Shown in pieces: positions 39,843 to 43,184 of a DNA stretch of 64,000 nt. Both the position numbers and the translations under genes were made by a program. The notes under the pieces were generated by a model. It saw only the letters and a program-made list of their open reading frames with translations. It made no database searches and was not told the DNA's origin. This DNA comes from Gammaproteobacteria bacterium (lineage in GTDB: Bacteria > Pseudomonadota > Gammaproteobacteria > SZUA-229), in the NCBI GenBank assembly GCA_026195255.1, contig JAPHSS010000001.1, positions 1-64,000 of the forward strand. The letters run 5' to 3'. Every line of letters begins with the position of its first letter. Position 1 is the stretch's first letter.

Positions 39843-42062
39843 TCAAAACATATCCTGTGGATCAACATCAATCGACCACCTGACTTTATTTGCTGTTTTT
39901 AACTTATGAATACCTGGTACCCAATGCCGCAAAATGGCATGTAGTTTTTTTCTTTCATCTGAAAGCAAAATCAACTGCCAGCGATAACGTCCCGCGCGTC
40001 GCTCCATTGGCGCCGGTATAGGGCCAAACAGTTCTACTCCTTCATAATTCAAAGCCTGTCTGCATTCATTTAAAAACACTATACCCTGTTCTTTATATAT
40101 TGATTCGCAGCGCACAATAACCATATAACTAAACGGCGGGAAATTGGCCTGCTTGCGCTCAATTAATGCGGTTTTTGCAAACCCCGCATAACCACTTTCT
40201 AACAAGATGTGTAATAACGGATGCTCAGGATGATGCGTTTGTATAATGACCTCACCTGCTCTTTTGCCCCTTCCGGCACGACCTGAAACCTGGATTATTA
40301 ATTGCGCCATATGTTCTGTGCCACGAAAATCTGCACTAAACAAACCCTGATCTGCATTTAGAATTCCCACCAGTGTTACATTCGGAAAGTCATGCCCTTT
40401 AGCCAGCATTTGAGTTCCAATCAGTATTCTGGCTTCTCCTGATCTTGCCTGGTTTAACTTTCTATCTAACTCGCCTTTAAGTCTTGTTGTGTCTTTATCT
40501 ATTCGACTAATAACAACGGATGGAAATTTTTCAGTTAGTGCAACCTCAATTCTTTCTGTGCCCGCTCCGGGTATATACAAACTCTCATGATTACACTGGG
40601 GGCACTGGGTTGGTGCTTTTTTTTCATAACCACAGTGATGGCAACGCAAACGCTGATTATGATGATGCAAAGTCATGTTCGCATCGCAACGTTGGCATTC
40701 TGTTGTCCAGCCGCATTCATGACACATTAATAAGGGTGCATAACCGCGTCGATTTAAAAACAGTAAAACCTGTCCGTCATTATTTAAATGTTCTTCAATT
40801 TTATTAAATAACGTATCTGATATTCCATCTTCCATCGGTCGACGACAAACATCCAACAGGCTAACTTTAGGTGGTGTTGCACCGGCAGCGCCTCGCTCTG
40901 TTAGTGTTAATAAAGAAAACTGACCTCGCGCTACATTTTCAAGACTTTCAAATGATGGTGTTGCCGAACCCAGGAGAACAGGAATATTTTTATTCTTCGC
41001 TCTGACAAGGGACAGGTCTCTTGCGTGATAACGAAAACCTTCCTGTTGTTTAAATGAGGCATCATGCTCTTCATCCAGGATAATCAAACCTAAATCAGGC
41101 ATAGGTGTATATAAAGCCGAACGCGTACCAATTACCACCCGCGCAATGCCCTTACTCGCCAGCACCCAGGCACTGTGCCTTTGTGTATCATTTAAACCCG
41201 AATGAAGGCTGGCTATGGTTGTGTTTAATCGCTGCGTAAACCGCTGAGTTAACTGTGGCGTTAAACTAATTTCGGGAACCAGCACCAAAACCTGGAGATT
41301 TTGCGCAAGCGCATGCTCTATAACGTCTAAATAGACTTCTGTTTTGCCACTGCCGGTAATGCCTTGCAACAAAAACGCCTGATATGTGTTTAAGGCCTGA
41401 ACAACCTCTTTTGCAGCACCAGCCTGTTGAGCATTTAAGTTAAAGCCATGGCTTGATTTATCTTTTATTTGATCAGGCGAAGTTATAACAGCCGTCTGTA
41501 CTTTCTGCCTCACTTCTACCAGACATTTTTCTATTAACACCTTTACTGGCGTGCGCCAGTTATCCCAGACTTCATTTAACTGGTCTGAATTAAGCCCATC
41601 TGCCAATGAATTTTGTAAGTAAGATAATAAAGCAGCCTGTTTTGGTGCTCGACTCAGACTTTCTATTTCTAGACTTTTGCCTGCTTCGGTTAAATGCCAG
41701 TAATTTTCTGACTTTAGTTCTGCCGGTGCGCCTTCTCTTATCCGCCTGGGCAATGCACTAAAAATCACCTCTCCCAGCGGGTAATGGTAGTAACTGGCTG
41801 ACCATTTAAGTAATTTTATTAAGTCCGCTGATAAAACGGGTTTTACATCAATAATCTCAATAAGTGGTTTCAACTTTGATAAGGGTAATGTAGATTCGTC
41901 GACCACCGATAACACCAAACCAACCAATTGATTTCGGCCAAATTGCACCTTTACCCGACAACCCTCTAGCGGGATCTGACCAGGCTCTACTGGAATCAAA
42001 TAATCAAACAGACTATAAATGGGAACGGGCACAGCGATGCGTGCAATTAAAGGCTTAGACAT
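39843..42062 (-). CDS. priA: primosomal replication helicase PriA
   Basis: 739 residues. It restarts stalled forks by loading the replicative helicase. The N-terminal DNA-binding part opens IARIAVPVPIYSLFDYLIP; Walker A is GITGSGKTEVYL near 230; the DEEHDASFKQQ box follows; the zinc module has eight cysteines (CHEC, CQRC, CHHC, CPQC) around 440-485; the C-terminal helicase motif QVSGRAGRG is intact. The start lies at the edge of the AT-rich DnaA-box region at 42.1-42.7 kb. Confidence 0.96.
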   Translation of the reverse strand: MSKPLIARIAVPVPIYSLFDYLIPVEPGQIPLEGCRVKVQFGRNQLVGLVLSVVDESTLPLSKLKPLIEIIDVKPVLSADLIKLLKWSASYYHYPLGEVIFSALPRRIREGAPAELKSENYWHLTEAGKSLEIESLSRAPKQAALLSYLQNSLADGLNSDQLNEVWDNWRTPVKVLIEKCLVEVRQKVQTAVITSPDQIKDKSSHGFNLNAQQAGAAKEVVQALNTYQAFLLQGITGSGKTEVYLDVIEHALAQNLQVLVLVPEISLTPQLTQRFTQRLNTTIASLHSGLNDTQRHSAWVLASKGIARVVIGTRSALYTPMPDLGLIILDEEHDASFKQQEGFRYHARDLSLVRAKNKNIPVLLGSATPSFESLENVARGQFSLLTLTERGAAGATPPKVSLLDVCRRPMEDGISDTLFNKIEEHLNNDGQVLLFLNRRGYAPLLMCHECGWTTECQRCDANMTLHHHNQRLRCHHCGYEKKAPTQCPQCNHESLYIPGAGTERIEVALTEKFPSVVISRIDKDTTRLKGELDRKLNQARSGEARILIGTQMLAKGHDFPNVTLVGILNADQGLFSADFRGTEHMAQLIIQVSGRAGRGKRAGEVIIQTHHPEHPLLHILLESGYAGFAKTALIERKQANFPPFSYMVIVRCESIYKEQGIVFLNECRQALNYEGVELFGPIPAPMERRAGRYRWQLILLSDERKKLHAILRHWVPGIHKLKTANKVRWSIDVDPQDMF

Positions 42063-42794
42063 ATGTGTATTGTGCCAGTGAATGGTAACAAATTGGAGAA
42101 TTGCATTTTAAAAAATAATCTTTGACAAATTCAAATATTACAGATTTATTAACTTTTCCACAGAAACTGTGGATAACTCTGTGGAGAACCTACAATTTAA
42201 ACTCAAAACAGCTGATTCTAGCGATATGTTGAACATTTTGGTTGTTTTTTGACCACTTATAAATCATATAAAATACAACAACTTACACGCATAAAAAATT
42301 AAAACACTATATATACAGTAGTTTGAGTTTATTCATGGTAATGATTAACAGCTATGTGTATAAGTATTTACTTGAATGGCTTATTTGTAGAATATTAGAT
42401 GATTATTTAGCATATTTAATTAATATTTAATGAATGAAGTTAAAGTATTACATTAATCTAATACGTGTAACTCATTGTATTTTAAAGGGTTAAAAACTTA
42501 TCCCCTTTTCCTGTGGATAAGTCTGTTGATAAGGGCTTGAAATCTTATCTAATTCTCGTGTTTTATACCCTATGTAACAGATTGTTCATAATTTGATCAC
42601 AACAAAAAAGACTTAAAAAACAATATCTTATAGTTTAATGGGTCGATTTGGTTAAAAAGTAAGCAGGACTTATTCCCGATATAGCTTATATGTGCATAAC
42701 GCACATAAAGAACCATATAAATTCAATACCTAACTGCATAAATCTAACTCACTATCAGTTAAGTTTCAAAAAGCAGATATCAGGCAAATGAGGC
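42063..42794. other. candidate replication origin or DnaA-binding locus
   Basis: 732 AT-rich bases without a gene. Five 9-mers match TTWTNCACA: 42154-42162 (plus), 42168-42176, 42355-42363, 42512-42520 and 42691-42699 (all minus); two more have one mismatch (42180-42188, 42524-42532). Two boxes are the perfect TTATCCACA and one is TTATACACA. A very AT-rich run at 42395-42435 could serve as an unwinding element. A TATGTGC/GCACATA hairpin overlaps the last box. dnaA is not in the window, so the region could also be a secondary DnaA-titrating site. Confidence 0.6.
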
Positions 42795-43184
42795 CTATTT
42801 ACTCTTTATCTGTACACCCACTGACTGATTATCTATCACTATCTGCTTTAATCTAGCGGCAATCGTCATCACTTTGTCCATCCAGAACAGCGCCTTATCT
42901 TCTGTTAGTTCCTGCTCAAGTGTTTCACTAAAAAGCGCTATCCACACTTCAAGGTCATCCTGTTTTATGCCAAGGGGGAAATGCTTGCCAATCATGTCAA
43001 TTTTAGGCGGATTATCCAGCTTGCCACCCATACTGATCCACCAGAAACCAGCTATTCGTTTTTCATGCTCTTCTATATCCTCTAGATGGTCAAAAAAATG
43101 CCCTAACTGTTGGTTTGCCATTGTTTTTTTATAAAACGAATGAATTACGGCTTCTATTTCTTCATAAGAGGGTATGTTTGACAT
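42795..43184 (-). CDS. group III truncated haemoglobin-like protein
   Basis: 129 residues, single globin domain. YEEIEAVIHSFYKKTMANQQ followed by LGHFFDHL, HEKRIAGFWWISMGG and, in the proximal region, IGKHFPLGI fit the truncated-globin group III pattern, with H in KHFPL as the likely haem ligand. These proteins bind oxygen or NO; roles in micro-oxic respiration or NO defence are proposed. It lies at the right edge of the DnaA-box region and is divergent from the kinase gene at 43258. Confidence 0.85.
   Translation of the reverse strand: MSNIPSYEEIEAVIHSFYKKTMANQQLGHFFDHLEDIEEHEKRIAGFWWISMGGKLDNPPKIDMIGKHFPLGIKQDDLEVWIALFSETLEQELTEDKALFWMDKVMTIAARLKQIVIDNQSVGVQIKSK

Follow-up and report, generated by a model that had tools for sequence, protein, structure and literature searches.

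The priA–globin intergenic region

The window, the 64,000-nucleotide stretch of gammaproteobacterial DNA analysed here, belongs to a 121-kb contig (C8) of a 3.56-Mb genome in 70 contigs. Between the start of priA (42062) and the stop of a globin-like open reading frame (42795) lies a non-coding gap of 732 bp with a GC content of 28%. priA (39843–42062, minus strand), which encodes primosomal protein N′ (NF004067, 963 bits), is a conserved neighbour of the locus. The other flank is formed by the globin-like frame (42795–43184, minus strand), a neighbour with no part in the mechanism proposed below; it has no NCBIfam match, and its name is that of the first-pass annotation.

A motif scan of the gap found five exact TTWTNCACA DnaA boxes, at 42154 (plus strand) and at 42168, 42355, 42512 and 42691 (all minus strand), and two one-mismatch boxes, at 42180 and 42524 (both minus strand). 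These are the positions given in the first-pass annotation, which had also remarked that six of the seven point the same way; all six are on the minus strand. Dinucleotide-preserving shuffles of the gap (n = 5,000) contained 0.21 exact boxes on average and never as many as five, and 296 kb of the host genome (contigs C8, C2 and C5) holds no second 732-bp segment with five exact boxes. Two features had been missed in the earlier annotation: a further degenerate box, TTATCCCCT, at 42498 (plus strand), which makes up, together with the boxes at 42512 and 42524, a second triplet spaced 14/12 like the first, and paired Fis-like and IHF-like sites. The two box triplets form a 54-nt direct repeat, with copies 344 bp apart. 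The AT-rich stretch at 42395–42435, previously suggested to unwind, is present, but it bears no marks of an unwinding element and is poorly conserved in congeners. A block between the modules described below, AAACACTATATATACAGTAGTTT (42301–42326), is strongly conserved in congeners. The gap has no Rfam match, and an RNA element was rejected as an explanation.

Two modules with one layout

Each triplet is followed by the same series of sites. The core of module A (42154–42188, plus strand) consists of box I (42154–42162, plus), box II (42168–42176, minus) and box III (42180–42188, minus), at offsets of 14 and 12 bp. A Fis-like site, GGTTGTTTTTTGACC (42240–42254, plus strand, one mismatch), lies at core +86, and an IHF-like site, ATACAACAACTTA (42273–42285, plus strand), lies at core +119; the latter has two mismatches here and one in two relatives. 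A fourth DnaA box, TTATACACA (42355–42363, minus strand), is found at core +201. The core of module B (42498–42532, plus strand) begins 344 bp after core A and repeats the 14/12 offsets, with the degenerate box I at 42498–42506 (plus), box II at 42512–42520 (minus) and box III, TTATCAACA, at 42524–42532 (minus). Its Fis-like site, GTTCATAATTTGATC (42584–42598, plus strand), is a perfect consensus at core +86; its IHF-like site, AAACAATATCTTA (42618–42630, plus strand, core +120), has one mismatch, and the corresponding site in two congeners matches the consensus perfectly. The fourth box of this module, TTATGCACA (42691–42699, minus strand), is at core +193.

The comparison of this gap across relatives envisaged in the first-pass annotation revealed no loss of boxes: in four relatives all core and fourth boxes are kept at nearly identical distances in otherwise diverged surrounding DNA, so that every box and spacing is retained. 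The host genome carries a second module on contig C2 (from C2:62563), beside kdkA (3-deoxy-D-manno-octulosonic acid kinase), with a near-perfect core, a perfect Fis consensus at +85, a perfect IHF consensus at +120 and a DnaA box at +212. A Fis-like gene is located 10 kb from this module.

Recurrence of the module in proteobacteria

With PriA as the query, 80 gammaproteobacterial contigs were collected, yielding 1.05 Mb of priA-flanking DNA. The 14/12 geometry gave 25 strict matches in these flanks, compared with one match for 288 other geometries together. With looser limits, the triplet was found at 42 of the 80 priA loci, always in the same orientation and at the priA start; the carriers include Lysobacter, Luteimonas, Dyella, Luteibacter, several methanotroph groups, Thioalkalivibrio and Cycloclasticus. 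Among the 80, no triplet was found beside priA on Vibrio, Aeromonas, Shewanella or Ferrimonas contigs. A related pattern search matched 80 of 96 relatives' genomes, and its reversed-pattern control none.

In a set of 101 distinct triplets, 71 IHF-consensus matches fall at +119 to +121 on one strand, compared with an average of about 1.3 for a 5-bp bin; exact DnaA boxes gather at +200 to +206, near +203. The distance from the IHF site to box IV peaks at 81–85, with minor groups near 72–73 and 92–95, about one helical turn either way, and a Fis consensus precedes the IHF site by 33–35 bp in about 64 of 104 modules. An independent class-wide search, in which the gap between core and IHF site was left free over 31 lengths, matched 104 of 377 genomes (reversed-pattern control, 0), and 122 of its 128 matches fell at six adjacent lengths, 118–123. 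A phylum-wide draw matched 67 of 397 genomes, six of them outside the Gammaproteobacteria. At the level of sequence, the layout seen in the window recurs in more than 100 other proteobacterial genomes examined. Some genomes (G130, G275 and G419) contain four or five modules of the DARS (DnaA-reactivating sequence) type, exceeding the two known in E. coli.

Tandem pairs of modules were found at 21 distinct loci, mostly in the window's family, on the same strand throughout and spaced by 272 to 368 bp. The distances within pairs tend towards multiples of 10.5 bp, a tendency that is only suggestive (Rayleigh p about 0.02, seven spacing classes). Because a strict-box double-core pattern in the 260–320 bp range occurs in only 2 of 370 genomes of the class, tandem doubling is mainly a trait of the window's family rather than a general rule.

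Location of the replication origin

The first-pass annotation had offered the cluster as a candidate oriC. GC skew was followed over three contigs of the host genome and 400 kb of one congener. The cumulative skew declines along the whole of contig C8 and does not turn at 42 kb. The genes dnaA, dnaN, recF and gyrB are on contig C5, and the other side is taken up by rpmH, rnpA, yidC and mnmE (names assigned by inspection, except for DnaA, which is a profile match), with mnmG further along; the priA-side cluster is therefore next to neither dnaA/dnaN nor mnmG. Three perfect boxes, TTATCCACA, occupy the dnaA–dnaN gap (C5:62274–62517), about 3 kb from the skew minimum of that contig, and the dnaA–rpmH gap has no exact DnaA box. 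The congener G004 has dnaA and the homologous priA-side cluster on one contig: its skew minimum (450,693) falls within the region of the dnaA–dnaN box cluster, and the priA-side cluster (305,815–306,361), at a distance of 145 kb, lies where the skew changes smoothly.

The real oriC is likely to be the dnaA–dnaN gap on contig C5. Placing oriC in the priA–globin gap fails because the skew does not turn there and a standard dnaA–dnaN box cluster lies on another contig. A main or secondary origin displaced from dnaA might be read into a box density at least that of the dnaA–dnaN gap and into the AT-rich surroundings, but the course of the skew in both genomes makes it highly improbable. Clusters of DnaA boxes alone are open to being mistaken for origins.

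Probable assignment to the DARS type

DARS sites are DNA switches for recharging DnaA, the replication initiator, and set the timing of new replication rounds in bacteria. To our knowledge, how they are built and how they work has been established essentially in E. coli alone, where two DARS sites are known. The DARS core is defined by three boxes, equally spaced in DARS1 and DARS2, with box I opposed to boxes II and III (PMC5742627). ADP-DnaA molecules on boxes I and II make head-to-head contact (PMC8682772; PMC10380432). DnaA gives up its ADP on DARS cores, and activation of DARS2 by IHF and Fis depends on spacing (PMC4245941). The window locus has the three-box core with box I opposed to boxes II and III, the 14 and 12 bp spacing of DARS1 and DARS2, an intergenic position away from oriC and predicted IHF and Fis sites at fixed distances, as in the DARS2 type. 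Sequence makes a strong case for its membership of the DARS family, and we consider it probable that the priA–globin gap is a tandem pair of IHF/Fis-regulated DARS-type modules, turning ADP-DnaA back into ATP-DnaA. Several points count against this assignment: two positions of module A's IHF-like site depart from the consensus, module B has a degenerate box I, the order of sites is unlike that in E. coli DARS2, and the Fis-like protein of the host scores 98.6 bits against a cut-off of 99.

Two other functions would also draw on clustered boxes. The first-pass annotation had named a DnaA-titration site as the alternative to an origin. The broader reading, of a regulatory DnaA-binding site remote from the origin, is borne out; titration itself is less likely than a DARS-type site, since the core geometry is exactly that of DARS. 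A datA-like or titration locus, at which DnaA and IHF would hydrolyse ATP-DnaA or the boxes merely soak up DnaA, shares the anatomy of DnaA boxes plus an IHF site, and many clustered boxes necessarily titrate some DnaA. However, the 14/12 triplet is absent from E. coli datA but present twice in the window locus, an opposed pair of boxes I and II is named as a hallmark of DARS (PMC10380432), and pure titration has no need of fixed Fis and IHF distances; we regard this function as unlikely. Somewhat less likely still is a DnaA-controlled promoter region of priA, in which the boxes would affect transcription only. The core does lie upstream of priA at the 42 of 80 named loci, and promoter-like sequence abuts core A, but the module also occurs away from priA (as at C2:62563), some genomes hold four to five copies, module B is equally conserved at 430–640 bp from priA, and Fis, IHF and box IV reach more than 200 bp away from the promoter. 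An added transcriptional role on priA is possible for the DARS-type pair, as core A adjoins promoter-like sequence of that gene.

Protein partners and proposed mechanism

The host genome encodes Hda (254 bits) and IHF alpha (164 bits), both over their cut-offs, and a 97-aa Fis-like protein just below its own, whose gene is beside a dusB-like gene. Aligned with E. coli DnaA, the host protein is identical at 285 positions, among them K178, R227, D269, R285, L290, R334 and the DNA-contact residues that were checked; the E. coli residues that handle nucleotide and bind the box are retained.

We propose that ADP-DnaA binds the core, where boxes I and II would bring about head-to-head contact. A bend made by IHF, aided by Fis, would draw the DnaA on the fourth box towards the core. 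DnaA contacts would then expel ADP, and apo-DnaA would take up ATP. The recharged ATP-DnaA may serve the following round of initiation, at the likely oriC in the dnaA–dnaN gap. Two modules on one helix face could provide a higher dose or cooperation between the pair. The anatomy, conservation and fixed spacing of the modules are observed, as are the partner genes; we infer from them the release of ADP and the folding of box IV by IHF. The fixed distances between core, IHF site and box IV suggest a concrete, testable folded structure, and a signature for IHF/Fis-linked DARS modules across proteobacteria allows tests of how widely DnaA recharging is conserved, how many sites serve it and where on the chromosome they lie, for example in methanotrophs and xanthomonads.

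Comparison with E. coli DARS and datA

According to reviews, DARS1- and DARS2-like sequences are conserved in many proteobacteria (PMC10380432), and the spacing of the DARS2 core, IBS and FBS is conserved in species proximal to E. coli (PMC5742627). In a limited literature search we found no description of a priA-linked DARS, of the fixed-distance layout of core, Fis site, IHF site and box IV, or of tandem doubling. When E. coli genomes were searched with the core by BLAST, most matches were to plasmids, the core being too short and degenerate for such a search. The E. coli loci were compared by direct reading instead (DARS1, NC_000913.3 813107; DARS2 core, 2969135).

E. coli datA resembles the window locus in having DnaA boxes and an IHF site; it differs in its opposite biochemical effect and in having no 14/12 triplet, for which reason identity with datA was rejected. 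DARS2, upstream of mutH, has the same core offsets and orientations as the window modules and extra DnaA boxes beyond. Its IHF-like sites, at +93 and +109, are displaced from +120 by about one helical turn. The order of sites is core–IHF–Fis in DARS2, whereas it is core–Fis–IHF in the window, its fourth box has the orientation opposite to that in the window modules and, unlike the window pair, it is without a second full core. In E. coli MG1655, a degenerate 14/12 triplet 316 bp after the DARS2 core recalls the tandem pairs.

DARS1, in the bioD–uvrB gap, shares the three-box core with identical 14/12 offsets and orientations. It is a single module that is active without IHF in vitro (PMC5742627), whereas the window locus is doubled, with Fis-like and IHF-like sites. 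DARS1 retains an IHF remnant with two mismatches at +121, and, from a reading of the matches, enterobacterial genomes with a near-identical DARS1 core have an IHF consensus at the spacing of the window modules. We tentatively suggest, as a possibility that falls short of an even chance, an ancestral gammaproteobacterial DARS of four parts in fixed helical geometry (core, Fis at +86, IHF at +120 and box IV at about +203), of which E. coli DARS1 would be a decayed copy and the locus of the window's family a phased tandem duplicate upstream of priA, the pair acting as one looped unit.
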